From positions 1-64,000 of the forward strand of contig NZ_WEKL01000020.1 in assembly GCF_019295435.1 (NCBI RefSeq): a stretch of DNA of 64,000 nt. The letters run 5' to 3'. The position numbers and the translations under genes are program-made. Positions 19,925 to 35,607 of this stretch are shown here, piece by piece; within the stretch, counting starts at the first letter, position 1, and each line of letters begins with the position of its first letter. Below the pieces are notes generated by a model. That model saw only the letters and a list, made by a program, of their open reading frames with translations, made no database searches and was not told where the DNA came from. The DNA comes from Aquimarina litoralis. GTDB lineage: Bacteria; Bacteroidota; Bacteroidia; Flavobacteriales; Flavobacteriaceae.

Positions 19925-19967
19925 GTTAAAACAGTTCAATAATTAGCATTGGCTAAATAGTAATTTG
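19925..19967 (+). promoter_or_regulatory. Alcohol dehydrogenase promoter element shared with the P450 promoter
   Basis: GTTAAAACAGTTCAATAA (19925-19942) continues ATTAGC and matches GTTAAAATAGTTTAATAA at 21967 upstream of the P450. A TTTG-containing near -7 box (TAATTTG, 19961-19967) follows. The distance from element to box differs by 22 bp (two helix turns) between the two promoters. The likely meaning is common control of the two units. Confidence 0.4.
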
Positions 19968-19991: not shown

Positions 19992-21116
19992 ATGTTAGCA
20001 AAAGCAGCAATTACCAATGGAAATGGTGATTTTTCTATCGAAGATATTACGATACTTAAACCTGAAGGTGATGAAGTTGTCGTAAAAATAATGGCAGCAG
20101 GTTTATGTCATACTGATTATGATTCTCTGCATTGGGGCAGACCTGTTATATTAGGACATGAGGGCGCTGGAATTGTAACAGATATTGGACCTGATGTAAC
20201 CTCTGTTTCTCCTGGAGATCATGTAATACTTAACTGGGCAATTCCTTGTGGAACTTGTTTTCAATGTCAGGAGCAAAATCAGCATATTTGCGAGAATAAT
20301 TCTCCAGTAGTTGCAGGAGATGCTTTACCCGACGGAGAAGTTTCAGCAGGACATGCACGATTAGAGAGTACCACTTTTAAGGATAAAGGTATTGAACGTT
20401 CCTTTAATATCGGTACCTTATCCACACATACTGTTGTGAGAGAACAGGCTGTTGTTAAGTATCAAACTGCAATTCCTTTCAGTTCTGCATCCATTGTAAG
20501 TTGTGGAGTAATGACTGGATACGGCTCTGCTGTAAATACAGCAAAAGTAACTCCAGGATCTACTGTAGCTGTCATTGGAACTGGTGGTGTAGGTCTTAAT
20601 GTAATTCAGGGAGCTAAAATATCAGGTGCGGCCAAAATTGTAGCCATAGACATTAATGAAGCAAGATTAGAAATGGCAAAGCAATTTGGCGCTACTCATT
20701 TTGTACTAGCGCAAAAATCTGATAAAGGCTTAAAAGAAGCTACGATAAAAGTTAAAGAGATTGTTGGCAAAAGAGGCGCCGATTTTGCATTTGAATGTAC
20801 TGCCATACCAGAATTAGGTGCTGCACCTTTGGGAATGATTCGTAACGCGGGTACAGCAGTTCAGGTAAGTGGAATTGAACAAGAAGTGACAATTGATATG
20901 CAATTATTCGAATGGGATAAAATTTATATCAATCCTTTATACGGTAAATGCAGGCCTCATATCGACTTTCCTAAAATTTTGGAACTCTATGACAAAGGTG
21001 ATTTATTATTAGATGAAATGGTAACCTCAACCTATAAATTCGAAGAATTACAACAAGCATTTGATGATATGTTGGCTGGAAAAAATGCGAAAGGAGTTAT
21101 TGTTTTTGAGTCTTAA
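19992..21116 (+). CDS. Zinc-dependent alcohol dehydrogenase, probably formaldehyde-active
   Basis: I start at 19992 (MLAKAAITNG), giving 374 aa; the upstream in-frame ATG at 19965 overlaps the promoter. Both zinc sites are complete: catalytic Cys39 (GLCHTD), His56-Glu57 (GHEGAG), and structural Cys86, 89, 92, 100. The NAD loop is GTGGVGLNV. It resembles class III (S-hydroxymethyl-thiol/formaldehyde) dehydrogenases. Next to a demethylating P450, a role in removing formaldehyde is likely, either thiol-linked oxidation toward formate or reduction to methanol, as has been reported for ADHs near such P450s. The direction of reaction is not shown by sequence. Confidence 0.82.
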   Translation: MLAKAAITNGNGDFSIEDITILKPEGDEVVVKIMAAGLCHTDYDSLHWGRPVILGHEGAGIVTDIGPDVTSVSPGDHVILNWAIPCGTCFQCQEQNQHICENNSPVVAGDALPDGEVSAGHARLESTTFKDKGIERSFNIGTLSTHTVVREQAVVKYQTAIPFSSASIVSCGVMTGYGSAVNTAKVTPGSTVAVIGTGGVGLNVIQGAKISGAAKIVAIDINEARLEMAKQFGATHFVLAQKSDKGLKEATIKVKEIVGKRGADFAFECTAIPELGAAPLGMIRNAGTAVQVSGIEQEVTIDMQLFEWDKIYINPLYGKCRPHIDFPKILELYDKGDLLLDEMVTSTYKFEELQQAFDDMLAGKNAKGVIVFES

Positions 21117-21148
21117 TAAAGTATTAAAAAATCAAAAAGACATTCGCT

Positions 21149-21961
21149 ATGCCATCAAAATTCAGAACAACAGAAATATCAGATCCTCGTTTTGAAGCCG
21201 ATCAATTACGGCACATTACAGTAAAAAGTACCCATCTCAAACAAAGAGGTGATATTACGGTTTATGTGCCTTCTGGGCAAAATCTGAAAGATTTACCAAT
21301 AACTATTCTGCTTCATGGAGTTTATGGTAGTCATTGGATTTGGTCTCAGAAAACGGGTATTCATCTAAAAATGGAATCTTGGATTCAAAATAGTGAAATT
21401 GAACCTATGATTATCGCTATGCCATCCGACGGATTATGGGGAGACGGAAGTGGTTATCTTACACATACACATGCTGATTATGAGAAATGGATTACCGAAG
21501 ATGTTATAAATGCTGTTATCGAATTGATCCCACAAGCTAGTACCAATTCCAAAGTATGTATTGCCGGATTATCCATGGGAGGATTTGGTGCGTTAAGATT
21601 AGGAATTAAAAACCATCAAAAGTTTGAGGCGATATCTGGATTATCCTCTATAACGATACTTGAAGAAATGAAACTTTTTGTTGAAGAGCCTTTGAATGCT
21701 TATTTTCAGGAAGAGAAAGAAAATGAATCCATCTATCAAACCGTCTTAACCTATAAAGAACATCTTCCTAAGCTACAATTTGATTGTGGTGTAGATGACA
21801 TTCTAATTGAAGGTAATCGAAAATTACATTATCAATTAAAAGAACTAAACATAGCACATACATATCAAGAACATCCAGGAAAACATGAATGGAGCTATTG
21901 GGAAACTCATATAAAAGACACCATACTTTTTTTCAACAATGTCCTTCAAACCTCTGAATAG
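21149..21961 (+). CDS. Esterase-D-like alpha/beta hydrolase (possible S-formylthiol hydrolase)
   Basis: 270-aa alpha/beta hydrolase of the esterase D / S-formylglutathione hydrolase type. Nucleophile Ser142 is in GLSMGGFG, the oxyanion segment is LLHGVYGSHWIW, and the final His is in HPGKHEWSYW. No signal peptide, so cytoplasmic. It starts 32 bp after the alcohol dehydrogenase. That pairing is the classic arrangement of thiol-dependent formaldehyde oxidation, where the hydrolase frees formate from the S-formyl adduct. A carbohydrate or acyl esterase is the main alternative. The thiol cofactor in this organism is unknown. Confidence 0.72.
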   Translation: MPSKFRTTEISDPRFEADQLRHITVKSTHLKQRGDITVYVPSGQNLKDLPITILLHGVYGSHWIWSQKTGIHLKMESWIQNSEIEPMIIAMPSDGLWGDGSGYLTHTHADYEKWITEDVINAVIELIPQASTNSKVCIAGLSMGGFGALRLGIKNHQKFEAISGLSSITILEEMKLFVEEPLNAYFQEEKENESIYQTVLTYKEHLPKLQFDCGVDDILIEGNRKLHYQLKELNIAHTYQEHPGKHEWSYWETHIKDTILFFNNVLQTSE

Positions 21962-22031
21962 AATAAGTTAAAATAGTTTAATAATTTATCAAAATAAGTT
22001 AATTACTATTAAGCACATCTCGCTTACTTTG
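21962..22031 (+). promoter_or_regulatory. P450 promoter region with AATAAGTTAA direct repeats
   Basis: AATAAGTTAA occurs at 21962-21971 and 21993-22002, 31 bp apart (three helix turns). The second copy extends as AATAAGTTAATTACTATT and matches the AraC-gene promoter (complement of 25790-25799) at 16 of 18 positions. The element shared with the ADH promoter overlaps at 21967. TTACTTTG (22024-22031) is a near -7 box just before the P450 start. The arrangement suits an AraC-type activator. Confidence 0.5.
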
Positions 22032-22052
22032 TTACACTAAATAATTCAGTTT

Positions 22053-23210
22053 ATGAAGAATAGTAAGTTTTCTGATCCTTTTGACAAAGCTCGACAAGAA
22101 AAAGGATATGGTGAAATGAATGATCAGGATGATCCTGTTACTATGGTGTTACGCCTTAAAGATGTTCGAAAATGCGCTCATAATTGGAAAACATATCAAT
22201 CTGGAGCTGTTCCAGGACGAATTGTAATTCCATCAGAAGTTCATATACGAGATACGCGTCAAATCCCATTTGAAGTAGACCCTCCGATGCACAAAACCTA
22301 CAGAGATCTCATTGAAGAGTGGTTTAAAAGGCCATTACTTCCAGAATATCAAGCTGAATTGGTTAGCATCATTGAAGATATAGTTGATAAAGCTCTTACA
22401 AAAAATGGTCCAGTAGAAGTTGTAGAAGAATTTGCTTTACGCATACAATCAAGAGCCCTAACCTTATTACTAAATATTCCGTATAAAGAATCTGAAACTT
22501 GGATCTCTTGGGGAACTCATGTATTTAGAAGTGAAGACAGTGCATTAGATGGTAGCAAGGCAAACATCCTATATGATTATATAGATGCGCAAATTGAAAA
22601 CGCGGTAAAAAACCCTGGTAAAGACTTATACTCCATTTTATTAAACACAAACATTGAAGATAGAAAACTCACAAGAGAAGAAGTAAAGGGAATTATGATT
22701 CTAACCTTTGCTGGAGGAAGAGATACAGTAATTAATTCTATAACAAATACAGTTGCCTATTTTGCTGAACATAAAGAGTCTTTACAATTACTGAAAGATG
22801 AACCTGAGATCATTGGCAAAGCTGTAGAAGAGCTGATACGATATTTTGCACCATTAACACAAATGGGAAGAGTAGCTACTCAAGATACAGTGGTTTGCGA
22901 GCATGCCGTAAAAAAAGATACTCGTATTTCTCTATGTTGGGCATCTGCTAATAGAGATGAAACGGTATTTGAAAATCCAAATGAAGTAGTATTAGACAGA
23001 AAAATCAATCCTCATGTAAGCTTTGGTTTTAGTCATCACAAATGCTTAGGAGCTACGCATGCTCGTCAAATAATGAAGATACTCTTACAAACATTAACTA
23101 AAAAAGTGACCTCTATAGAAATTGTCGATGCTCAGGAAAAGATTGAAGAGCTTGGAGAATTTAAAAGAAAGGTAGGTTTTAATAGCCTGACCATAAAGTT
23201 TAATAAATAA
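22053..23210 (+). CDS. Cytochrome P450 (6-O-methyl-D-galactose demethylase type)
   Basis: 385-aa soluble bacterial P450. Heme thiolate Cys331 lies in SFGFSHHKCLG; the usual Gly three before the conserved His region is Ser here. The I-helix oxygen motif is AGGRDT (220-225) and the ExxR pair is Glu260/Arg263. P450s of this context in Zobellia and Formosa remove the methyl ether from 6-O-methyl-D-galactose of porphyran/agarose, giving galactose and formaldehyde. Ferredoxin and ferredoxin reductase follow directly (37- and 44-bp gaps), completing a three-component class I system. Function is inferred from context; the P450 fold is certain. Confidence 0.88.
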   Translation: MKNSKFSDPFDKARQEKGYGEMNDQDDPVTMVLRLKDVRKCAHNWKTYQSGAVPGRIVIPSEVHIRDTRQIPFEVDPPMHKTYRDLIEEWFKRPLLPEYQAELVSIIEDIVDKALTKNGPVEVVEEFALRIQSRALTLLLNIPYKESETWISWGTHVFRSEDSALDGSKANILYDYIDAQIENAVKNPGKDLYSILLNTNIEDRKLTREEVKGIMILTFAGGRDTVINSITNTVAYFAEHKESLQLLKDEPEIIGKAVEELIRYFAPLTQMGRVATQDTVVCEHAVKKDTRISLCWASANRDETVFENPNEVVLDRKINPHVSFGFSHHKCLGATHARQIMKILLQTLTKKVTSIEIVDAQEKIEELGEFKRKVGFNSLTIKFNK

Positions 23211-23247
23211 CACTCCTTTCAAAAAAATAATTTAAAAAAATATAAGT

Positions 23248-23556
23248 ATGCCTAAAATAACTTTTATCACTAGTGAAGACGAAACCATTTCAGTAGAAGG
23301 AACTTCAGGATCTGTAATGCAGCTAGCCGTAGATAATGATATCAAAGGAATTGAAGGAGATTGTGGTGGTGTTTGTTCTTGCGCTACCTGTCATGTATTT
23401 ATTCATCCAGATCATTTCGCAAAAACAGGTGCTCCTGGAGAAATAGAAAAAGATATGTTAGAACTAGATGATAATGTAACTGAATACAGCAGATTGTGTT
23501 GTCAATTAGAAATTAACGACAATTTGGATGGGTTGATAGTCACAGTAGCCCAATAA
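23248..23556 (+). CDS. [2Fe-2S] ferredoxin (putidaredoxin type)
   Basis: 102 aa with the adrenodoxin/putidaredoxin cluster motif: Cys39, Cys45, Cys48 (GDCGGVCSCATCH) and Cys85 (RLCCQL). Two extra cysteines, 43 and 84, lie next to ligands; whether they matter is unknown. It lies between the P450 and its reductase and must carry electrons from one to the other. Confidence 0.93.
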   Translation: MPKITFITSEDETISVEGTSGSVMQLAVDNDIKGIEGDCGGVCSCATCHVFIHPDHFAKTGAPGEIEKDMLELDDNVTEYSRLCCQLEINDNLDGLIVTVAQ

Positions 23557-23600
23557 ACTTATAACAACCAGTCCTACCTTTAATTACCTCAATCATTACT

Positions 23601-24860
23601 ATGCCTAACGAAAACACAAAAGCTCCAATATGTTTGGTTATTGGAGCAAGTCATGCGGGAATTAATTTTGCATTTTCTCTTAGAAAAGAAGGATGGACTG
23701 GTTCTATAATTGTATTCGACAAGGATCCAGAAACTCCTTATCATCGACCTCCATTATCGAAATCCTATTTAACCTCAACAGAAGAGACAAATAATAACTT
23801 ACTGAAGTCATTAGAAAGTTATGAAAAAGAAAATATTAAGTTATATCTTGGTGTTTCTATAAAGAAAATTGACCGTATTCATAAAACTGTCATTACAGAA
23901 GATGGTTCTAGACAACAATACGATAAACTTGTAATTGCTACTGGTGCAAGACCTCTAATTCCACCTATTAAAGGTTTAGATAAAGTAACTGAAGTATATA
24001 CGCTTAGAACAGCACATGATGCTACTACAATTCGCCAGAAAGTTAAAGAGAACATCAGCAAAAGAGTGCTCATTATTGGTGGACGATATACAGGATTAGA
24101 GATTGCCGCCTCCTTAAGAAAACTCGGAACTTCTGTTACTCTTTTGGAACGCGAATCCAAAATACTAGCGAGAGTGACATCTCCTGAGATGAGTCAATTT
24201 TTTTATGATGTACATATCTTAAATGGAGTTCAAATTCATACCAACAAAAATGTTTCTTCAGTCACATCTATAAACCATACAAATACTATCACTTGTGATG
24301 ATGAAACCTCGTATGAAGCTGAAATAATTATATTAGGTACTGGGGTTATAGTAAATACTGAATTAGCAAAAGATGCAGGGATTCAAACCGAGAATGGTAT
24401 AAAAGTGAATCAAGCATGCCAAACAAACGACAAAGATATTTATGCCATTGGCGATTGTACATTTCATCATAACCCTCATTATAATCGTTTTGTACGCCTT
24501 GAGTCTGTACAAAATGCCGTAGATCAAGCAAAGATTGCAGCCGCTTCGATCTGCGGAAAAGAAGTTATTTATGATACGATCCCATGGTTTTGGTCGGATC
24601 AATATGAAATTAAACTACAAATGGTAGGCTTACCTTTTGATTACAATGAAGCAATTATCAGAAATGAAGAGGAAACTACTTATAAGTTTTCCATTTGGTA
24701 TTTTGATAATGATGAATTATTGGCGGTAGATGCTATCAATAATGCGAAAGCATATGTGTTAGGTACTAAATCCATTAAAGAACACTTAAAAATCAATAAA
24801 TCTAATCTTCGGGATTCTTCTTTAAAGCTAAACCTTGCAAATCTAATCTTAAAAGAGTAA
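23601..24860 (+). CDS. FAD-dependent ferredoxin reductase
   Basis: 419-aa protein of the putidaredoxin-reductase/rubredoxin-reductase type. The FAD motif is VIGASHAGI near residue 13, the NAD(P)H motif is IIGGRYTGLEIA (third position Arg instead of the common Gly), and the C-terminal FAD motif IYAIGDCTF is intact. It transfers electrons from NAD(P)H to the adjacent ferredoxin for the P450. It ends 21 bp before the converging AraC gene. Confidence 0.92.
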   Translation: MPNENTKAPICLVIGASHAGINFAFSLRKEGWTGSIIVFDKDPETPYHRPPLSKSYLTSTEETNNNLLKSLESYEKENIKLYLGVSIKKIDRIHKTVITEDGSRQQYDKLVIATGARPLIPPIKGLDKVTEVYTLRTAHDATTIRQKVKENISKRVLIIGGRYTGLEIAASLRKLGTSVTLLERESKILARVTSPEMSQFFYDVHILNGVQIHTNKNVSSVTSINHTNTITCDDETSYEAEIIILGTGVIVNTELAKDAGIQTENGIKVNQACQTNDKDIYAIGDCTFHHNPHYNRFVRLESVQNAVDQAKIAAASICGKEVIYDTIPWFWSDQYEIKLQMVGLPFDYNEAIIRNEEETTYKFSIWYFDNDELLAVDAINNAKAYVLGTKSIKEHLKINKSNLRDSSLKLNLANLILKE

Positions 24861-24881
24861 AAAAACACTTTAAAGGAGCCA

Positions 24882-25778
24882 TTATCCATCCTTAGCAGAT
24901 TTTCGCAGGGTATAAGGTGAAATCTTTTCTATTTTTTTAAACTGCCTATTAAAATAAGGAACAGAGTTATATCCACATTCAAAAGCAATTTCTTTGATTG
25001 GCATGTCTGTATTAATCAATAATTTTTTAGCAAAATCTATTCGTATTTTATTTAAGTAATTGGTGAAGGTAAAGCTAGTTTCACTTTTAAAATATCTACA
25101 AAAAGCGGATACCGTCATATTTACCATTTCGGCACACTTTTCTAGAGAGACATCTTGTTTATAATGCTCCATTATAAATTCGTGAACCTTCAAAATCCTA
25201 TTTGATTTAAAATAGAAACTATTTTTTAAATAATTTTCTGATGCTAACACTTGATATCCTGAAAGATTAATAAGATCCAGTATCTTAATTAGTTTTAGCA
25301 ATTGATCCAAAGGAGAAAGCCTAGGGATTTCCTGCAGTAATTCAGCGATCTCAGTTCGATGTTTACCTATAATTTTTATACCTCTTTCGGACGCCTGAAG
25401 TACTTTACGAACTCCTTTGAGTTCAGGTACATCCACAAAATGAGATCCAAAAATATCTTTTCTAAATTGTACATAAATAGACTCACAGTACTCTTCAGAA
25501 CTCTCCTCAAGAAATCGCGCATCTGGAATCCAAGCATGAGGTAAATATCCGCCAAGCAAAACCAAATCTCCTATTTCAAAATCTTCACCATGATCCGCTA
25601 CTAATCTTTTGCCTTGCCCGTTAACAATCAATAATAATTCAAATTCGGGATGATAATGCCAGTTGCTACTAAAATAGGGTTGTTTGTACACTCCTGTATG
25701 AAAAGAAGCGTGTTGCGAAGTTTCTATTTTTTCTAGTGAAACTTCTATTTTAGGATGTTCTGAAACCGGTTTCAACAC
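24882..25778 (-). CDS. AraC-family transcriptional regulator (cupin sensor)
   Basis: 298 aa. N-terminal cupin-like sensor (~35-110, SSNWHYHPEFELLLIVNGQG) and C-terminal double HTH (~195-295, VSLEKCAEMVNMTVSAFCRY and IKEIAFECGYNSVPYFNRQF). The organization is that of sugar-responsive AraC proteins. It sits between the ferredoxin reductase and the formate dehydrogenase genes, divergent from the latter. Its own promoter and the P450 promoter share the AATAAGTTAATT element, so it likely controls the demethylation and formate genes. The inducer is unknown; a methylated sugar is a reasonable guess. Confidence 0.88.
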   Translation of the reverse strand: MLKPVSEHPKIEVSLEKIETSQHASFHTGVYKQPYFSSNWHYHPEFELLLIVNGQGKRLVADHGEDFEIGDLVLLGGYLPHAWIPDARFLEESSEEYCESIYVQFRKDIFGSHFVDVPELKGVRKVLQASERGIKIIGKHRTEIAELLQEIPRLSPLDQLLKLIKILDLINLSGYQVLASENYLKNSFYFKSNRILKVHEFIMEHYKQDVSLEKCAEMVNMTVSAFCRYFKSETSFTFTNYLNKIRIDFAKKLLINTDMPIKEIAFECGYNSVPYFNRQFKKIEKISPYTLRKSAKDG

Positions 25779-25789
25779 AACAATAAAAA

Positions 25790-25830
25790 TTAACTTATTG
25801 CAAAAATAGTATAATTATTACTCTAAGCAA
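25790..25830 (-). promoter_or_regulatory. AraC-gene promoter with AATAAGTTAA element
   Basis: On the minus strand a perfect -7 box TATTTTTG (complement of 25801-25808) is preceded 19 bp upstream by TTG (complement of 25828-25830). AATAAGTTAA (complement of 25790-25799) overlaps the expected transcription start, as expected for autorepression. The same element occurs twice before the P450. Confidence 0.6.
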
Positions 25831-25941
25831 CCTCTTATCTTCGTGAAATAGATATACTGGAACTATTTATTTTTATAAATAGATTATTTATTATACCGAT
25901 AATTGTATCTTCCATTTCATTAATTTCTTCATTTCACAAAA

Positions 25942-28239
25942 ATGGCTAATTCCAAAAGAAATATTTCTATCACTGGATCTACTGAGTTTTCTGATTTAAT
26001 AGTAAAAGAACCTTCCACTTATGCTGCTGGAACTAAAGCTGTAAAAGTAGCCTTACAACATGCTTTTAAAGAAATGGGGGTTGTAAAATCGTTAAAGGGA
26101 CTTGCTCAAATGAATCAAAAAGAAGGTTTTGATTGTCCTGGTTGTGCATGGCCTGATCCTGATAAACCTTCAAAAGTTGCAGAATATTGTGAAAACGGAG
26201 CTAAAGCATTGGCGGAAGAAGCCACTAACAAAAAAGTAGATGCTGCTTTTTTTAAAAAATACTCGGTAGAAGAAATTTCACAATGGACAGATTATCAAAT
26301 AGGAAAAAGTGGACGGATTACAGAACCCATGGTCTTATATCCAGATAGCATACATTATGAACCGATTAGTTGGAAGAAGGCTTACACACTTGTTGCCGAA
26401 CACTTACATCAACTTAAAGATCCTGATGAAGCTATCTTTTATACCTCTGGAAGATCCAGTAATGAAGCTGCTTTTTTATATGGACTTTTTATACGAGCTT
26501 TTGGTACTAACAATATGCCAGATTGCTCCAACATGTGTCATGAATCTAGTGGTGTAGCACTTAGTGAAACCTTAGGTATTGGCAAAGGTTCCGTTACACT
26601 AGATGATTTTGAAAAAGCTGAAGTTGTGTTAGTTATAGGACAAAATCCTGGAACTAATCATCCTCGTATGTTATCAGCATTACAAAAATGCAAAGAACAA
26701 GGTGGAAAAGTAATCAGTATCAATCCCCTTGAAGAAGCAGGGCTTATCAGATTTAAAAATCCTCAGGAAGTAAAAGGTCTTATTGCTGGAGGAGAAACGC
26801 TTACTGATATTCATTTGCAAGTTAAGATCAATCAGGATGTAGCTTTATTAAAAGCAATTCTTATCAGACTTGCTGCATTAGACAAACAAACAAAAAAGGT
26901 GTTTGATCATGAGTTTATCCACAATTATACGCAAGGGTATGAATCACTTTTGGAACATCTGGAAAGTTTTGATGTTCAAGAATTGATCAAACAATCAGGG
27001 GTATCACCTTCCTTAATCGACCAAGTTGTGGAACTACTAGCTCATAGAAATAAGATTATTATTTGTTGGGCTATGGGACTTACACAGCATAAAAATGGTG
27101 TCGAAAACATTAAAGAATGTGTAAATCTATTATTGCTAAAAGGAAGTCTAGGCAAACCTGGTGCAGGAACTTGTCCTGTAAGAGGACACAGTAATGTGCA
27201 AGGAGATCGATCTGTTGGGATCGTTCATCATGCATCTCCAGTATTTAATAGTGCTGTAGAAAGTGTCTTTGGTTTTACGCCTCCTACTAAAGCAGGTCTT
27301 GATACTGTACATTCTATAAAAGCAATGCATGAAGGAAAGGCGAAAGTATTTTTTGCATTGGGTGGGAATTTTGTGTCTGCTGTTTCAGATACACAGTATG
27401 CTGCTGATGCTTTACAAAATTGTGAGTTAACCGTACAAGTAAGCACCAAACTAAACCGAACGCATACTACTGTAGGGAAAACAGCATTAATACTACCCAC
27501 ATTAGGAAGATCTGAATTTGACCTAAAAGATGGGAAACCACGATTTTTTACCGTGGAAAATAGTATGGGAAAGGTACACAGATCAAAAGGAATGCTATCT
27601 CCTGCTTCAGATAATCTTAAAAGCGAACCCGAAATCATCGGTGGCATTGCAGATGCTTTTTTTAAAGGAAATCATCCTGTAGATTGGTTACCATTAAGCG
27701 AAGATTATACAGCTATAAGAGCAAAACTACAAGAGGTGATTGCAGGTTTTACAGGAATAGAAAAAAAATCCAAAGGATCTGGTTTTTATCTACCCAATAA
27801 TGTTCGTGAATTAGATTTCAGCAAATTACCAAATGGGAAAGCACAATTTAGTAATTGTTCTGTACCAGATCATCAGTTACAAGAAGATGAATTCTTGATG
27901 ATGACTATTCGCTCTCATGACCAATTTAATACCACCATCTATGGTATGAATGATCGTTATCGAGGCATTTTTAATGAAAGAAGAGTCGTTTTAATGAATC
28001 CTAAAGACATTGAGAAGTTTGATCTAGCTGCTTTAGAAATTGTTGATCTTACTAGCAATTATGACAATGTCATAAGGAAAGCAGAAAATTTTAAGATAAT
28101 TTCCTATAATATCCCTCAAGGAAATATTGCTACGTATTTTCCAGAGACTAATATCCTAGTTCCCTATAACCATTACGCAGATAAAAGTAATACGCCCATT
28201 AGTAAGTCTGTAGTGGTTAAAATATTGAAGAAAGAATAA
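25942..28239 (+). CDS. Molybdopterin oxidoreductase, formate dehydrogenase-like (YdeP/FdhF-type)
   Basis: 765 aa, the YdeP-like branch of formate dehydrogenase alpha subunits. N-terminal CPGC (Cys65, Cys68) belongs to the family-typical CPGCAWPD motif. The molybdenum-ligand position is Cys199-His200 (NMCHESSG), a cysteine where FdhF has selenocysteine. It continues with the pterin-binding domains and the C-terminal dinucleotide domain (from ~650). No partner subunit is adjacent. Downstream of a demethylating P450 and formaldehyde genes, oxidation of formate to CO2 is the natural job. YdeP homologs elsewhere have little-known functions, so this is inference. Needs FdhD and molybdenum-cofactor genes encoded elsewhere. 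Confidence 0.75.
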   Translation: MANSKRNISITGSTEFSDLIVKEPSTYAAGTKAVKVALQHAFKEMGVVKSLKGLAQMNQKEGFDCPGCAWPDPDKPSKVAEYCENGAKALAEEATNKKVDAAFFKKYSVEEISQWTDYQIGKSGRITEPMVLYPDSIHYEPISWKKAYTLVAEHLHQLKDPDEAIFYTSGRSSNEAAFLYGLFIRAFGTNNMPDCSNMCHESSGVALSETLGIGKGSVTLDDFEKAEVVLVIGQNPGTNHPRMLSALQKCKEQGGKVISINPLEEAGLIRFKNPQEVKGLIAGGETLTDIHLQVKINQDVALLKAILIRLAALDKQTKKVFDHEFIHNYTQGYESLLEHLESFDVQELIKQSGVSPSLIDQVVELLAHRNKIIICWAMGLTQHKNGVENIKECVNLLLLKGSLGKPGAGTCPVRGHSNVQGDRSVGIVHHASPVFNSAVESVFGFTPPTKAGLDTVHSIKAMHEGKAKVFFALGGNFVSAVSDTQYAADALQNCELTVQVSTKLNRTHTTVGKTALILPTLGRSEFDLKDGKPRFFTVENSMGKVHRSKGMLSPASDNLKSEPEIIGGIADAFFKGNHPVDWLPLSEDYTAIRAKLQEVIAGFTGIEKKSKGSGFYLPNNVRELDFSKLPNGKAQFSNCSVPDHQLQEDEFLMMTIRSHDQFNTTIYGMNDRYRGIFNERRVVLMNPKDIEKFDLAALEIVDLTSNYDNVIRKAENFKIISYNIPQGNIATYFPETNILVPYNHYADKSNTPISKSVVVKILKKE

Positions 28240-28283: not shown

Positions 28284-29648
28284 CTATAAAATTACTTTCT
28301 TGTTTATACTATCTTCTTTTTTAATAGAAGTGTTCCACATGTATATTTTTTCTAGTTTTTTAAATTTAGAAAGTTGTTGAATACTTTTATTCGTTATTAA
28401 AGAGTTACTATGTAGGTTTAAGCTTTCTAATTGCTCTAAACTAGTTAAATGTTGAATACCTGCATCAGAGATATTATTTTTCTGCAAAGCCAACTTTTGT
28501 AACCCTTTAAAACTACCTATTATTTCTAGATGGGTATCTGTAATTCCTTGGGATGGCAATGACAACCAAACAATATTATTCTTAATTTTTGAGAGTTCTT
28601 CCAGAATTTCTTTTACAATTTTCACATCAAATTCTTTGCTATTTTTAGGTAACATAGAAACATCATATCGGTTTGTTTCTGATACAATTTCTCTCATATT
28701 TACTCCCAGTTGTATCAAGCTTGCCATAACTTCTTCTGACACCGGTGAAGCTACACTCATCGTTGACCCAGCAGAATGATCATCGCCTAATTGAAGTTGT
28801 TCTGCCAATAATTTTTTAATTTCTTCTGGTGTATCTACCGTTCCTACTGTTGCTGTAAAATCCGCCTGACCATGATCTATCCAATACTCAATTATTTTTA
28901 TTTCCTCTTCTGTTAAAGGCGTCTTTCCTTCTGGCGGCATAAACTCTTTGTCATCTGGATCTAGATGAACTCTTTTAATCAACTCTGACTGCTCACTATT
29001 ACCAGCAATGAAAGCAACACCACTTTTTCCTCCTTTTAGAATTGACACCTCATCTACTAACGAAAGTCCTCCTTTTTTCTTAGAATTATTATGACAACTC
29101 AAACACTTATTATCCAAAATAGGATGAACGACATGAGCAAATAGTTGTGCCTCTTCAATAGAATTTATTTTAGGCACTTCTTTTTTTTCTTTCGTAGTAA
29201 AAGGTAAATAGGCTGTTAAATAATCTGATCCATGAGTTAGATTACCTCCGTAGTGTCCTGTAATACTTAATAACAAAACAATAAAAGTAAGTGTAGCAAT
29301 ATTCAATCTTACAGATTCTTTAATAATGTATTTAATTCGTTTCGTTTTTAACATCCAAGCGAGAATCGCTATCATCGTAGTTGCTATACCAAACCAAAAA
29401 TGTTTATCCAAAGCTTCACCTTCATAATCGCCGCTTAATGACAACATATATCCCAATATACAAGCAATAATAGCACTCATTGCTCCTAGAAATAAGGCTA
29501 ATGGTATTGCTTCTTTCAATAGCTCTTTTTTCTTGTATTTTGCTACTATTTCTAGTATAAATGCAAAAAATAGAAACCCAATTGGTAAGTGTACTACTAG
29601 TGGATGAAATCTTCCAAAAAACAAAACAAGATCAGATGCTTCATTCAT
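28284..29648 (-). CDS. DUF2231 membrane / c-type cytochrome (PSCyt1) / LRR protein
   Basis: 454 aa. Residues ~8-145 are a four-helix DUF2231-type membrane domain (HPLVVHLPIGFLFF). Residues ~165-260 form a planctomycete-type cytochrome c domain with heme motif CLSCH and a downstream Met ligand candidate (EFMPPEGK). The C-terminal ~375-450 is a short leucine-rich repeat region. It would anchor heme in the cytoplasmic membrane facing the periplasm. It is the last gene of a tight four-gene minus-strand operon with DUF1501 and DUF1553 proteins. The function of these families is not established; a periplasmic electron-transfer role is suggested by the heme. Confidence 0.78.
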   Translation of the reverse strand: MNEASDLVLFFGRFHPLVVHLPIGFLFFAFILEIVAKYKKKELLKEAIPLALFLGAMSAIIACILGYMLSLSGDYEGEALDKHFWFGIATTMIAILAWMLKTKRIKYIIKESVRLNIATLTFIVLLLSITGHYGGNLTHGSDYLTAYLPFTTKEKKEVPKINSIEEAQLFAHVVHPILDNKCLSCHNNSKKKGGLSLVDEVSILKGGKSGVAFIAGNSEQSELIKRVHLDPDDKEFMPPEGKTPLTEEEIKIIEYWIDHGQADFTATVGTVDTPEEIKKLLAEQLQLGDDHSAGSTMSVASPVSEEVMASLIQLGVNMREIVSETNRYDVSMLPKNSKEFDVKIVKEILEELSKIKNNIVWLSLPSQGITDTHLEIIGSFKGLQKLALQKNNISDAGIQHLTSLEQLESLNLHSNSLITNKSIQQLSKFKKLEKIYMWNTSIKKEDSINKKVIL

Positions 29649-29724
29649 GAATATTCTTATATATTTTTATTACAATAGCTCTCAAACTCCAACTTCATAG
29701 TTTGAGAATGTTATTTTACTTTTC

Positions 29725-30843
29725 TTATATTCTTTCTAATTTTAATGGAGGCGTTCCATTTGCATTCCATTGACAGATATATAGATTCTTATCCTCATCA
29801 ATACACACATCATGACCATGCAAAATTGGCTTATGCTCAAGTTGATATGATTTTTGTAATTCTCCATTCACATATGAAGGTTTTGTTCCTCCAGGATTAG
29901 ATACAACTTTATCGTCTTCTAAAATCGTTACAAAACCTGTATGATCTTGCCAGGTAGTCCGTCCGACTTCAGGTTGAGACCAACAAACACCTGCATATAA
30001 ATTTTGATCATCGAAAACAGGTCTACAGACTTGCATATTTGGTAAATGCAATGTTTTTACATATTTCCCTTCTAACGTGAACCATTTAAAACATTCTTCA
30101 TTTCTAGATGTACATACTACTAATGGGTTTGATTTATCACGATAATCGATAGCCACTCCATGGGCATTATCTAATCTATAATTGGGATCCTCATTTTGTT
30201 TGCCGCCCCAATGTCTTATATACTTCCCAGTAGCATCGTATTGAATGATATAATCCATTCCGTATCCATCTGCTACATAAATATCTCCGTTAGGTGCTAC
30301 GGCAGTTTCTGTAGGACAGAAATGGTCTCCAGCTTTGTAAATTCCAATCGTTTGAGGATGCCCAATATCAAAAATTACTTTCCCATCGGTGGTAGTTTTT
30401 GTAACTCTCCCGTTATGATGTATCCATTTCCCATTTTTATCCAAAAACCATCCAGAATCTGTGAGAAACAACACATCTTCTCCTCCTTCATCAAACAACG
30501 TAAGACCGTGTCCTCCAGGATATGCAGTACCCCAATAATCCAAAAGTTTCCCCGATTTATCAAAGATCAAAATATTATTATCCGTATGATCTCCCATCAT
30601 TATTAATCTGCCTTTGCTATCCATTTGCATTTCATGACAGTTAAGAATAGGATTTCTAACAGTACTGATATCTACCCAATCTCTTATAATTTTGTATTGA
30701 TAATCTCCGTGACCTATAATCTCGTTCATTTTTGAAGTATTTTTTTTTATAATATGAAATCCAAAAGTGGGAGCAGTTATTGCACCAGCACTTAATAAGG
30801 CTGTGCCTTTAATAAATTTTCGTCTTGAATTTTCTTTATTCAT
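29725..30843 (-). CDS. Tat-exported NHL/beta-propeller protein
   Basis: 372 aa with a twin-arginine signal (NSRRKFIKGTALLSAG). The rest is a beta-propeller of NHL-type repeats (DSKGRLIMMGDHTDN, APNGDIYVADGYGMDYI, IDEDKNLYICQWNANG), like peptidyl-alpha-hydroxyglycine alpha-amidating lyase relatives. No catalytic role can be assigned. It lies 11 bp after the DUF1501 gene and belongs to the same operon, so its product should act in the periplasm with them. Confidence 0.75.
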   Translation of the reverse strand: MNKENSRRKFIKGTALLSAGAITAPTFGFHIIKKNTSKMNEIIGHGDYQYKIIRDWVDISTVRNPILNCHEMQMDSKGRLIMMGDHTDNNILIFDKSGKLLDYWGTAYPGGHGLTLFDEGGEDVLFLTDSGWFLDKNGKWIHHNGRVTKTTTDGKVIFDIGHPQTIGIYKAGDHFCPTETAVAPNGDIYVADGYGMDYIIQYDATGKYIRHWGGKQNEDPNYRLDNAHGVAIDYRDKSNPLVVCTSRNEECFKWFTLEGKYVKTLHLPNMQVCRPVFDDQNLYAGVCWSQPEVGRTTWQDHTGFVTILEDDKVVSNPGGTKPSYVNGELQKSYQLEHKPILHGHDVCIDEDKNLYICQWNANGTPPLKLERI

Positions 30844-30854
30844 AGGAAGAAAAA

Positions 30855-32360
30855 TTAGCTTAGTATATCTTTTACAATATGTCCATGTACATCTGTTAAT
30901 CTGAATCTTCTTCCTTGATGTTTATAGGTTAATCGTTCATGATCAATCCCAAAAAGATGAAGTAATGTAGCCTGAAAATCGTGTGTATGTACTGGATCTT
31001 TAATTACATTATAACTAAAATCATCAGTCTCTCCATAGGTAATTCCAGGTTTTACACCTGCTCCTGCCATAAACATCGTGAATGCTTTAGGATGATGATC
31101 ACGCCCATAATCTGTAGCCGTTAATTTTCCTTGTGAGTATACCGTTCGTCCAAATTCTCCTCCCCAAATCAACAAAGTATCTTCAAACATACCTCGTTGT
31201 TTTAAATCCTTAATCAAAGCAGCATTTGCTTGATCTGTTTTTCGGGCATTTCCTAACACTCCTTTTGGGCATCCGATATGCTGATCCCAACCTTGATGAT
31301 ATAACTGCACAAATTTGACTCCTTTTTCCAGCAATTTTCTTCCTAAAAGGCAATTTGCAGCATACGTACCTGGATCTCGACTATCTTTTCCATACATATC
31401 GAAAATATACTCGGGTTCATCACTCATATCAGTTACTTCAGGTATCGATGTTTGCATACGAAAAGCCATCTCGTATTGGGACATTCGGGCATTAATTTCG
31501 GGATCTCCATAAAAACTGTTTTGTACATCATTCAATTTCCCTAGATAATCTAACATATTTCTTCTATTATGCCCATCATAGTTTTCAGGATCTGTGAGAT
31601 ATAATACAGGATCTTTTCCGCTTCTAAATTGTACTCCTTGATGTTCCGTAGGCAAGAAACCATTTCCCCAAAGTCGAGCATATAAAGGTTGTCCTCCTCC
31701 ATTTTTAGAGATTAACGTAATAAATGTGGGTAAGTTTTCATTATCAGAACCTAAACCATAACTAATCCACGAACCTATAGAAGGTCTTCCTGGCTGCTGA
31801 CTACCAGTTTGAAAAAAGGTAATTGCTGGATCATGATTAATAGCATCAGTTTGCATCGATTTTATAAAACAGATATCATCTACTACTTCCGACAAATAAG
31901 GCATAGCACTACTCACCCAAGCTCTAGATTCTCCGTATTGTTTAAAATCGATAATGGATGGAGCAATAGGTAAAGAGGTTTGATCAGCACTCATACCTGT
32001 AAGACGTTGTCCTTTTCTTACGGAATCTGGTAATTCCTGACCGAATAGATCCTTTAGCTTCGGTTTATAATCAAAAAGTTCAATTTGTGAAGGCCCGCCA
32101 CTCTGAAACAAATAGATAGCTCTTTTTGCTTTAGGAACATGATGTGGTAATCCTAGATCATTTCTACTAAACATTCCTAAATCAGGCTGAACGTTATTTT
32201 TAACAGCACTCCAGGCTTTATCTGTATTTAGTAGAGAACCCAAGGCCAAAGCTCCAAAACCTAATGATGTTTTGGTTAGAAAAGCTCTTCTGTCCATCAT
32301 TTTTTCTACCTGCTGTAGATCCTTGTTATTTGATCGTAATGTATCGTGGTGATTGCACAT
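30855..32360 (-). CDS. DUF1501 family protein (Tat-exported, alkaline phosphatase superfamily-like)
   Basis: 501 aa. A twin-arginine-type signal (MDRRAFLTKTSLGFGALALG) starts after ~21 residues. The rest matches DUF1501 (PF07394) along its full length, e.g. FLFQSGGPSQIELFDYKPKL-type start (AIYLFQSGGPSQIELFDYK), WGGEFGRT and GRDHHPKAFTMFMAGAG. DUF1501 is related to sulfatase/alkaline phosphatase-fold enzymes and nearly always pairs with DUF1549/DUF1553 proteins, as here (7-bp gap). Activity is not known. In a locus that lacks classical sulfatases, hydrolysis of sulfate or phosphate esters is worth testing. Confidence 0.88.
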   Translation of the reverse strand: MCNHHDTLRSNNKDLQQVEKMMDRRAFLTKTSLGFGALALGSLLNTDKAWSAVKNNVQPDLGMFSRNDLGLPHHVPKAKRAIYLFQSGGPSQIELFDYKPKLKDLFGQELPDSVRKGQRLTGMSADQTSLPIAPSIIDFKQYGESRAWVSSAMPYLSEVVDDICFIKSMQTDAINHDPAITFFQTGSQQPGRPSIGSWISYGLGSDNENLPTFITLISKNGGGQPLYARLWGNGFLPTEHQGVQFRSGKDPVLYLTDPENYDGHNRRNMLDYLGKLNDVQNSFYGDPEINARMSQYEMAFRMQTSIPEVTDMSDEPEYIFDMYGKDSRDPGTYAANCLLGRKLLEKGVKFVQLYHQGWDQHIGCPKGVLGNARKTDQANAALIKDLKQRGMFEDTLLIWGGEFGRTVYSQGKLTATDYGRDHHPKAFTMFMAGAGVKPGITYGETDDFSYNVIKDPVHTHDFQATLLHLFGIDHERLTYKHQGRRFRLTDVHGHIVKDILS

Positions 32361-32367
32361 AATCGTA

Positions 32368-35300
32368 TTATCTTTTGGTTATAGTGGCATCAGAATTCAT
32401 AATGGTACTGGCAACTATTGCATTTGCTGCTATCATCGATAAGTTATCATCTGGATTAAAAGCAAAATCTCCTGATGCCAACCAGCCTTTCGCTTTTGAA
32501 ATATCACCATTGAACCTATTATATTCTTCCTGTTGAAGAGTAACTAATAACTGTAACTCTTTTTGAGATATTTGTCTTCCTGTTAATCGGATATAGATAT
32601 CTTTAATACCTTCTTCTATAGAGGTAAAAGCTGTCATATTTTTACCCATTACTTTAGAAGCTTCAATGTATGTAGGATCATTTAGTAACACTAAAGCTTG
32701 CAAAGGAGTATTTGTTTCTTGTCTTCGAGTCATACATATTTCTCTGGTCGAAGCATCAAACGTTGCAATCGTTGGATTTGGGGCTGTCCTTTTCCAAATA
32801 GTGTATAAACTTCTTCTGTATAACTTATCTCCAGTATCTCTTTTGTAGGGTAAGTGTGTCATCTTCCAAAGTCCTTTTGGTTGATACGGTTTTACACTTT
32901 CGCCTCCTATTTTAGCATTTAACAATCCACTTGCTACTAATGCATTGTCACGAAGCATTTCACCTGATAACCGTTTAGAGGGTCCTCTGGCCAATAATGA
33001 ATTATCAGGATCCATATCTCTTAATTCGTCAGAAACATTCGAGTCTTGTTGATACGTCTGAGACATCACAATCTGTTTATTTAATGCTTTTAGATCCCAT
33101 CCAGACTCCATAAAATTAGTAGCTAACCAATCTAATAATTCAGGATGCGTTGGTAAGCTCCCTTGATTACCAAAATCTTCAGAGGTTTCTACAATTCCTT
33201 TTCCAAAGAAATTCTGCCAATATCTATTTACCACAACTCTTGCTGTTAATGGATGCTTGGAGTCTGTTAGCCACTTAGCTAATCCTAATCTATTTTTTGG
33301 TAAATCTTCTGACATTGCGGGCAAACTGCTTGGTGTATTTGAGAAAACTTCTTCTCCATGGACATCATATTGCCCTCTTTCTAATAAATATGTTTTCCTG
33401 AGTCCTGGAGAATCTTTCATTACCATTATCTCTTTAATATTATCTGCACTATCTGCTTGTATGGTTCGAATCTCTTGAAGAGACGAAATTGCTTCTCTAG
33501 CAGGAATTGATTTTACGGACAAATAATAGTCGGTAAGCAGTTTTTTATCAGTATCTGAGAGTTCCTTGGATGTTTTTGAAATTAGAGGTTTTAAAAGCTT
33601 AGTATCAGAAAGTTTTAAAACTTCCAAAGGAGTTAGCTCTTTGGTAAATACTTTTAAGTCATCTACGATTGCTCCTGCAATTCCTTTACCACGCCATCTA
33701 GCTCCAATTTGTAAACCAGGTTCTATGGGTTCTGGATAGATATAATCTTTTAAATCATGGAATATAATATCTTTATATAAGTTGTCGATTTCTATATTAG
33801 TTTGCATATGCTCTCCGTTCATATACAACTTTAATCCGCTAGCTTTGCTAGATCCATCATAGGTCATTGTTAGTTGAATCCACTGATCTCTTGGCACTTC
33901 TTTAATCGTTCTCTCAACGATAGCGTTATCTGGCCAAACGTGTGCTAATAACAACTCAAAAGTGTTATCTTTTGTAATCGACAGATGATATCCACGATAA
34001 CTATGCAATCTTGTCCCTTGTGCTTTATGAAAAATAACTCCTTCTTTTAGATCCTTTGGAATAAAAACACGTATCCCAATACTAAAGTTCTCACTTCTCT
34101 GAAACACTCCTACTTTATCTAAATCTAACCATGCATCACCATCAAACTGAAGTCCCTTCCCTTTGTATCCTTCTTTTAGAACAATTTTTTGATTTCCAGC
34201 AAACTGGGTTTTCATTTCTCCTTTATCTCGATAATTTAAATTGTTTCGTAAAGAAGAGTTCTCAAAGTCATAATATGCTACCAGATGTTTAGAATCTGTA
34301 AATGAATCTTTTTGATACTTTTCATTAGCAATCCACTGATCTGCTTCTTCCTTTTCACTATATACAACTTCTTTTATTTTATTTTGAGAGTTTTTTACAA
34401 GATCATCGATGTACGCCATCATTTGCTCTTCTTCTTTAGTAGGAAGTAACATCGTAGGAACAGGCATTGACCAATCCCATGGAATTTGACCAGATTCATT
34501 TACCTGATTAAAAAAACTGAATAATTCAAAGTAGTTTTTTTGAGAAATCGGATCGTATTTATGATCATGACATTTAGCGCAGGCTACGGTTAATCCCATG
34601 ATGCCTTGTCCTACCACATTGGTTCTATCCGAGACATACTCTACTCTAAATTCTTCATCTATAATACCACCTTCCAAATTCTGGGGATGCAACCTGTTAA
34701 AACCAGTAGCCAAGATTTGGTCTTTTGTTGGGTTTTCTAATAAATCACCTGCTAACTGCCAAGTAATGAATTGATCATAAGGCATATTTTCATTAAAAGA
34801 GTTAATTACCCAATCTCTCCAAGGACTCATATCTCTATAGCGATCTACAAAATATCCGTGTGTATCTGCATATCTTGCCAAATCTAACCAATCGATTGCC
34901 ATCTTTTCTCCATAATGTTCTGAAGCCAGAAGCCTATCAACTTGTTTTTCATATGCATCGGGACTTTTATCATTCAAAAAATCAAACAATTCTTCTTTGG
35001 TTGGTGGTAGACCAGTAAGGTCTAAGGAGACTCTTCTTAACAATAATTCCTTATTAGCTCTTTTTGCCAAATTCAAATTGTTTTCTGATAGTTTTTTGAT
35101 TACAAAATTGTCAATCGGATTTTTCTCTGAGGAGTTTGTTTCTATCTCAGGTATCTTTGGTTTACTTGGAGAAATAAAAGCCCAATGATCTTTATATTCT
35201 GCACCTTCTTCTATCCATCTAATCAAAATTGCTTTTTCTTCAGGAGAGAGTTTCAAATAAGATTCTGGAGTGGGCATAACCAGTTTAGGATCTTCGGACA

Positions 35301-35607
35301 AAATTCTATGAAAAACTTCTGATTTTTTCAAATTCCCAGGATCTATAGCGAACTTTCCTGGTGATTCTGGCAATTCCAAAAAAGCAGTCTCTTCTGAATG
35401 CAATTGTAAGCCAGCAGAGATTTTTGCTTTATCAGGACCATGACAAGCAAAACATTTATCTGAAAGAATTGGTTTTACATGTGTATTGTAATCTATAGTT
35501 TTAGGAAGTTTCTCATATGCGTCAGCTACTTTCTCTGGCAATGAGGGCTTACAACCTTTACAGATATTCAAAAGAACCAATATTATTAAAAAAGAACCTT
35601 TTTTCAT
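32368..35607 (-). CDS. PSCyt1-DUF1549-LamG-DUF1553 lipoprotein
   Basis: 1079 aa. Lipoprotein-like signal (Cys19, KGC). Then a planctomycete cytochrome c domain (~40-135, heme motif CFACH), DUF1549 (~165-375, with a second CAKCH motif), a LamG/concanavalin-like domain (~480-665, FDGDAWLDLDKVG) and DUF1553 (~770-1045, HPLTARVVVNRYWQNFFGKG). This full set is typical of Planctomycetes and Verrucomicrobia and occurs in some marine Bacteroidota. LamG could bind carbohydrate. It heads the four-gene operon; its promoter has a weak copy of the agar-locus element at the conserved spacing. Function unknown. Confidence 0.88.
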   Translation of the reverse strand: MKKGSFLIILVLLNICKGCKPSLPEKVADAYEKLPKTIDYNTHVKPILSDKCFACHGPDKAKISAGLQLHSEETAFLELPESPGKFAIDPGNLKKSEVFHRILSEDPKLVMPTPESYLKLSPEEKAILIRWIEEGAEYKDHWAFISPSKPKIPEIETNSSEKNPIDNFVIKKLSENNLNLAKRANKELLLRRVSLDLTGLPPTKEELFDFLNDKSPDAYEKQVDRLLASEHYGEKMAIDWLDLARYADTHGYFVDRYRDMSPWRDWVINSFNENMPYDQFITWQLAGDLLENPTKDQILATGFNRLHPQNLEGGIIDEEFRVEYVSDRTNVVGQGIMGLTVACAKCHDHKYDPISQKNYFELFSFFNQVNESGQIPWDWSMPVPTMLLPTKEEEQMMAYIDDLVKNSQNKIKEVVYSEKEEADQWIANEKYQKDSFTDSKHLVAYYDFENSSLRNNLNYRDKGEMKTQFAGNQKIVLKEGYKGKGLQFDGDAWLDLDKVGVFQRSENFSIGIRVFIPKDLKEGVIFHKAQGTRLHSYRGYHLSITKDNTFELLLAHVWPDNAIVERTIKEVPRDQWIQLTMTYDGSSKASGLKLYMNGEHMQTNIEIDNLYKDIIFHDLKDYIYPEPIEPGLQIGARWRGKGIAGAIVDDLKVFTKELTPLEVLKLSDTKLLKPLISKTSKELSDTDKKLLTDYYLSVKSIPAREAISSLQEIRTIQADSADNIKEIMVMKDSPGLRKTYLLERGQYDVHGEEVFSNTPSSLPAMSEDLPKNRLGLAKWLTDSKHPLTARVVVNRYWQNFFGKGIVETSEDFGNQGSLPTHPELLDWLATNFMESGWDLKALNKQIVMSQTYQQDSNVSDELRDMDPDNSLLARGPSKRLSGEMLRDNALVASGLLNAKIGGESVKPYQPKGLWKMTHLPYKRDTGDKLYRRSLYTIWKRTAPNPTIATFDASTREICMTRRQETNTPLQALVLLNDPTYIEASKVMGKNMTAFTSIEEGIKDIYIRLTGRQISQKELQLLVTLQQEEYNRFNGDISKAKGWLASGDFAFNPDDNLSMIAANAIVASTIMNSDATITKR

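Follow-up and report, generated by a model that had tools for sequence, protein, structure and literature searches.

The closest described counterparts of the locus analyzed here are the demethylation systems of Zobellia galactanivorans and Formosa agariphila, in which, in a red-algal galactan setting, a cytochrome P450 and its redox partners free formaldehyde from the methyl ether of 6-O-methyl-D-galactose. The alcohol dehydrogenases (ADHs) FoADH and ZoADH have no formaldehyde activity, either alone or with glutathione, mycothiol, bacillithiol, cysteine, CoA, or ergothioneine, and they neither reduce nor dismutate formaldehyde, favoring the reduction of aromatic aldehydes (PMC10033563). The authors argued that bulky thiols do not fit the narrow active site; N-methyl-bacillithiol does not appear in that study's list of assayed thiols. 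An esterase beside the ADH has already been described in many marine bacteria, and knockout of the ADH gene causes a dramatic growth defect on 6-O-methylgalactose (PMC10033563). No physiological substrate of the ADH is known although growth on the methyl sugar depends on this enzyme, and what is at stake is the role of the ADH and the esterase beside the P450.

Two other systems bear on the locus. In thiol-dependent formaldehyde oxidation, a class III ADH is followed by S-formylglutathione hydrolase and formate dehydrogenase. In the FdhF/YdeP family of soluble oxidoreductases, PP_0256 and PP_4596 are needed by P. putida to tolerate formate, Fdh4A is needed by Methylobacterium extorquens to oxidize it, and E. 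coli YdeP is tied to acid stress responses (PMC10308882).

The demethylation module of the Aquimarina locus

The window, which is the whole 64-kb stretch of Aquimarina litoralis DNA that was analyzed, encodes a GH86-type porphyranase, SusC/SusD, galactose-1-phosphate uridylyltransferase, galactokinase, a LacI regulator, an aldose epimerase, and a GH2 enzyme. The GH86, SusC/SusD, and galactose-catabolism genes identify it as a red-algal galactan utilization locus, and a set of dehydrogenases in the window probably serves anhydrogalactose catabolism. The closest named loci belong to an uncultured Aquimarina (L002) and to Aquimarina latercula DSM 2041 (L003), with which gene order is kept over ~20 kb. 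The first-pass annotation had placed six enzyme genes between positions 19992 and 28239 and proposed that together they carry the sugar methyl group to CO2; all six genes were found where it had placed them (Table 1).

Table 1 Features of the P450 module and the adjoining YdeP region
Feature	Position	Strand	Evidence
Zinc-dependent alcohol dehydrogenase, FoADH/ZoADH ortholog	19992..21116	+	phmmer to 8h2a, 8h2b; Phe136 conserved
PF00756 alpha/beta-hydrolase esterase	21149..21961	+	Pfam PF00756, 56 bits; triad S142, D217, H246
Cytochrome P450, 6-O-methyl-D-galactose O-demethylase (by orthology)	22053..23210	+	phmmer, 648 bits to 6g5o
2Fe-2S ferredoxin, P450 redox partner	23248..23556	+	PF00111, TIGR02007; adjoins P450 in loci compared
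NADH:ferredoxin reductase, P450 redox partner	23601..24860	+	PF07992 + PF14759, HcaD/AndAa-like; adjoins P450 in loci compared
AraC-family regulator, divergent from YdeP	24882..25778	-	PF12833, 79 bits
AraC-YdeP intergenic region, 163 bp, probable shared control region	25779..25941	.	computed gap
Cytosolic FdhF/YdeP-family molybdoenzyme, probable formate dehydrogenase	25942..28239	+	TIGR01701, 861.6 bits; C199, H200, R414

The genes for the ADH, esterase, P450, ferredoxin, and reductase form a tight codirectional run (19992-24860) with gaps of 32, 91, 37, and 44 bp. The listed ORF of the ADH opens at a TTG at 19965, but homology and the start given in the first-pass annotation favor the ATG at 19992. 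The phmmer match of the P450 to 6g5o, the solved Zobellia demethylase, covers residues 1-384 of 385, and the ferredoxin and ferredoxin reductase genes lie directly beside the P450, as expected of its redox partners. These three genes stay together in the loci examined and are accompanied by the ADH and the esterase in nearly all of them, so the five-gene grouping is not due to chance. Judged by orthology and gene order, the five-gene run within a galactan locus is the 6-O-methylgalactose demethylation module already known from marine bacteria. Orthology to the characterized demethylase gives good support to the first step of the proposed route, in which the P450 would demethylate the sugar, yielding galactose and formaldehyde.

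Compared with the Zobellia and Formosa system, which has the orthologous P450, the same redox partners, and the same galactan setting, the Aquimarina window also encodes a YdeP-type molybdoenzyme and, next to it, an AraC regulator. The YdeP gene lies outside the five-gene run, as the minus-strand AraC gene intervenes, and this divergent layout suggests that YdeP is a neighbor with its own promoter region rather than the sixth gene of the operon. No regulatory motif shared by the region upstream of the ADH and the AraC-YdeP intergenic region rose above shuffled controls. An AraC gene is also present, at a greater distance, in most of the other P450 loci. As the five-gene part is known, including the ADH-esterase pair (PMC10033563), only the molybdoenzyme is new. 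We found no paper on a formate dehydrogenase in a P450 demethylation cluster among the open-access papers searched, most subscription journals lying outside the search, and YdeP appears to be an unreported, recurrent addition to the known module.

A separate feature of the region is a planctomycete-type gene set on the minus strand of the window (28284-35607), comprising DUF2231/PSCyt1, NHL, DUF1501, and PSD1 genes, which adjoins the P450 module. The same set likewise occurs in L002, L003, L004, and L054 as well as in two other genera (L049 and L050), and a related DUF2231-DUF1501 pair comes after YdeP in L144 and L196.

The alcohol dehydrogenase and the esterase

phmmer aligns the Aquimarina ADH to the full length of the solved FoADH and ZoADH, with scores of 579 bits (8h2a) and 553 bits (8h2b). 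In the alignment, the active-site Phe136 of FoADH/ZoADH is retained and the ERSF motif is conserved. By contrast, the scores against the S-(hydroxymethyl)glutathione/mycothiol dehydrogenase families are far below the cut-offs, at 233.5 bits for TIGR02818 (cut-off 543.95) and 236.8 bits for TIGR03451 (cut-off 512.9). The Aquimarina enzyme thus shares orthology, Phe136, and a neighboring esterase with the published ADHs but differs from them in the loop that precedes the conserved GHA motif, where the ADHs of the Aquimarina lineage carry four inserted residues that FoADH and ZoADH lack. We considered this insertion as a YdeP-specific change in the active-site loop and rejected the idea, because it tracks the Aquimarina lineage with or without a linked YdeP.

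The catalytic triad of the esterase is intact, with Ser142, Asp217, and His246 near-invariant across 43 aligned relatives. Its nearest solved structures are esterases, including feruloyl and tributyrin esterases, and it scores 35.7 bits against the S-formylglutathione hydrolase family TIGR02821, for which the cut-off is 281.7. The earlier label of an S-formylthiol-hydrolase-like enzyme is therefore generous, as the triad agrees with it whereas the family score does not; a role as formyl-thioester hydrolase is possible on the basis of the sequence.

The first-pass annotation had assigned the conversion of formaldehyde to formate to this pair, an assignment that the published assays of the orthologous ADHs contradict (PMC10033563). 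The test that it suggested, the dehydrogenase with formaldehyde plus bacillithiol, glutathione, or no thiol, has largely been performed on these orthologs with negative outcome. The absence of formaldehyde activity in FoADH and ZoADH means that the middle of the proposed C1 route failed in the orthologs.

The YdeP-type molybdoenzyme and its linkage to the P450

The Aquimarina genome carries a single YdeP copy of the TIGR01701 (FdhF/YdeP oxidoreductase) type, the score of which exceeds the family cut-off of 582.15 bits. Its C199, H200, and R414 align with Sec140, His141, and Arg333 of E. coli FdhF, the active-site residues of formate dehydrogenase, and all 66 aligned family members have Cys, His, and Arg at these positions. 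The Aquimarina protein thus agrees with PP_0256, PP_4596, Fdh4A, and E. coli YdeP in family membership and catalytic residues, and differs in that its gene lies within a sugar-demethylation locus, in a genome that lacks FdhD. The iron-sulfur cluster region is less typical. The only conserved cysteines of the N-terminal cluster region are C65, C68, and C83; C65 and C68 align with two FdhF cluster ligands and C83 is conserved at another position, whereas nothing corresponds to FdhF C15, C42, and Lys44, so the set of four cysteines for a [4Fe-4S] cluster plus lysine is incomplete. The FdhD sulfurtransferase is required by characterized formate dehydrogenases. Searches with TIGR00129 and PF02634, which were positive in control genomes, found no FdhD in the Aquimarina genome or in any cassette-bearing genome tested, and FdhD does adjoin YdeP-type genes of another subclade. 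Moreover, no electron-acceptor subunit is encoded near YdeP, which bears on the energy gain suggested in the first-pass annotation. With FdhD missing, unusual Fe-S ligands, and no acceptor subunit nearby, formate oxidation by YdeP is plausible but not proven.

These features raise the alternative that YdeP is an FdhD-independent molybdoenzyme that acts on another substrate or has a stress role of the kind suggested for E. coli YdeP (PMC10308882). The lack of FdhD and the atypical ligand set agree with such a role, as does the occurrence of many YdeP proteins of the same clade among unrelated neighbors (nitroreductase, uronate, and DNA-repair genes). However, the catalytic Cys, His, and Arg do not vary, family members function in formate metabolism (PMC10308882), and the gene is repeatedly linked to a module that produces formaldehyde; on balance, we consider a non-formate role somewhat unlikely. 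For the last step of the earlier proposal, YdeP oxidizing formate to CO2, the residues, the formate roles within the family, and the linkage in Cytophagales speak in favor and the absence of FdhD speaks against, leaving the step plausible.

A small protein was observed near many genes of this family. DUF7009 (PF22668, ~121 aa; e.g., L141:8319-8681), which has a near-invariant EKDF-x-CL motif, lies ~20-200 bp from a YdeP-type gene in most of 24 loci, in two orders, and occurs in roughly 20 genomes altogether, including L146, L178, L204, and L206. It was not found beside the YdeP of the three genomes with FdhD next door (L076, L077, and L107). DUF7009 may serve YdeP-type molybdoenzymes as an accessory protein or in their maturation.

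Of about 30 flavobacterial P450 loci with flanking sequence, only those of the small A. latercula group have YdeP next to the module. In the sister lineages L004, L005, and L054, the gene is missing from the P450 locus and lies elsewhere in the genome, so YdeP is not essential to the demethylation module. Replacement of YdeP by a diverged homolog in the sister loci was considered and rejected: L004 has at that place an unrelated 706-aa protein, glycoside-hydrolase-like by eye, and the sister lineages carry either this protein or nothing there. This restricted distribution, the unrelated protein or empty position in the sister lineages, and the place of YdeP outside the P450 operon would all be expected if YdeP were a chance neighbor of the module in the A. 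latercula group, with no functional tie to it.

The Cytophagales give a different picture, with a separate and tighter linkage. An ADH-esterase-YdeP cassette is present in 8 of 12 P450-bearing genomes; in seven, the three genes follow one another in the same direction, no more than about 10 kb from the P450, whereas the eighth (G401) is split by a contig break, with YdeP at a contig end, and is counted by inference. One locus (L123), a single occurrence, has P450, ferredoxin, reductase, ADH, esterase, and YdeP as six codirectional genes. The linked YdeP proteins of Aquimarina and Cytophagales fall into two clades of the maximum-likelihood tree, and a single clade was rejected (p-AU 0.0007). 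Two origins of the linkage, or one ancient origin followed by many losses, would account for this, and both favor function over chance. For one copy in a genome of ~6 Mb, a YdeP within 10 kb of the P450 by chance is a ~0.3% event. At the level of genomes, YdeP occurs in 26 of 29 P450-positive and 125 of 368 P450-negative Flavobacteriaceae (Fisher p 3e-9), and likewise in 12 of 12 and 98 of 279 Cytophagales, respectively (Fisher p 6e-6), although these tests ignore genome size and phylogeny and serve as supporting evidence only. Given the Cytophagales cassette and the co-occurrence, we judge a chance location beside the module to be very unlikely.

In P450-negative genomes, no recurrent formate-specific neighbors of YdeP were found, the neighbors being mixed apart from DUF7009. 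In three Cytophagales genomes without P450 (L192-L194), a same-clade YdeP is flanked on one side by a nitroreductase gene and on the other by consecutive sodium symporter, FMN oxidoreductase, and SDR genes.

The fate of the methyl carbon

Key genes of the RuMP pathway are reported to be induced by porphyran in Zobellia (PMC10033563). In contrast to the hexulose-6-phosphate synthase (HPS) reported for Zobellia, none was found in the Aquimarina genome, where the best match scores 28.9 bits against a cut-off of 200, and HPS is absent from the three Flammeovirga tested. The cut-off is exceeded in 5 of 37 P450-positive genomes, and three more have intermediate scores. As HPS is below the cut-off in most P450-positive genomes, most of the demethylating genomes here need another outlet for formaldehyde. 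The YdeP cassette is a possible outlet for this majority of species without a strong RuMP match, and the gene hints at how bacteria that demethylate red-algal sugars dispose of toxic formaldehyde.

We favor a known 6-O-methylgalactose module that has been extended by a cytosolic FdhF/YdeP-type molybdoenzyme. Formaldehyde would be freed by the P450 system, as in the orthologs, and YdeP would most likely oxidize the formate from formaldehyde disposal to CO2, which would drain the C1 unit and might recover electrons spent on the P450. We hold this reading, a demethylation module with a YdeP that oxidizes the resulting formate, at about even confidence. For the intervening step, the ADH and the esterase are the obvious candidates, and the ADH would need a carrier beyond the thiols already assayed, e.g., N-methyl-bacillithiol. 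That YdeP has repeatedly been recruited to precisely these two genes hints, on genetic grounds, at formate as the product of the pair.

In its full form, this becomes the complete route from methyl group to CO2, with the ADH acting on a formaldehyde-thiol adduct, the esterase on a formyl thioester, and YdeP on formate. The order of enzyme classes is that of the classical thiol-dependent pathway, and in a second lineage YdeP joins precisely the ADH-esterase pair. BshC, of bacillithiol synthesis, is present in 16 of 16 genomes tested, and N-methyl-bacillithiol, which stands outside the published list of assayed thiols, has been measured in the flavobacterium Polaribacter MED152 (PMC6282198). The crippled growth of the ADH deletion on the methyl sugar (PMC10033563) points the same way. 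On the other side, both the ADH and the esterase are far below the cut-offs of the thiol-dependent families, and the orthologous ADHs, with their narrow site and preference for aromatic aldehydes, are inactive on formaldehyde with the known thiols, bacillithiol included (PMC10033563). We judge the complete route to be unlikely. Its generalization, that marine Bacteroidota without RuMP fully oxidize the sugar methyl to CO2 through the ADH, the esterase, an FdhD-independent YdeP, and another carrier thiol such as N-methyl-bacillithiol, is speculative and distinctly doubtful; if true, such a cassette would account for the need for the ADH on 6-O-methylgalactose despite its inactivity on formaldehyde with known thiols. 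The first-pass proposal thus survives in part, with a sound beginning, a middle at odds with published biochemistry, and a plausible end.

A different arrangement was observed in G119 (L155), a P450-positive genome without YdeP, in which a distinct 915-aa formate-dehydrogenase-like gene lies directly beside FdhD. This genome may have a separate formate route.
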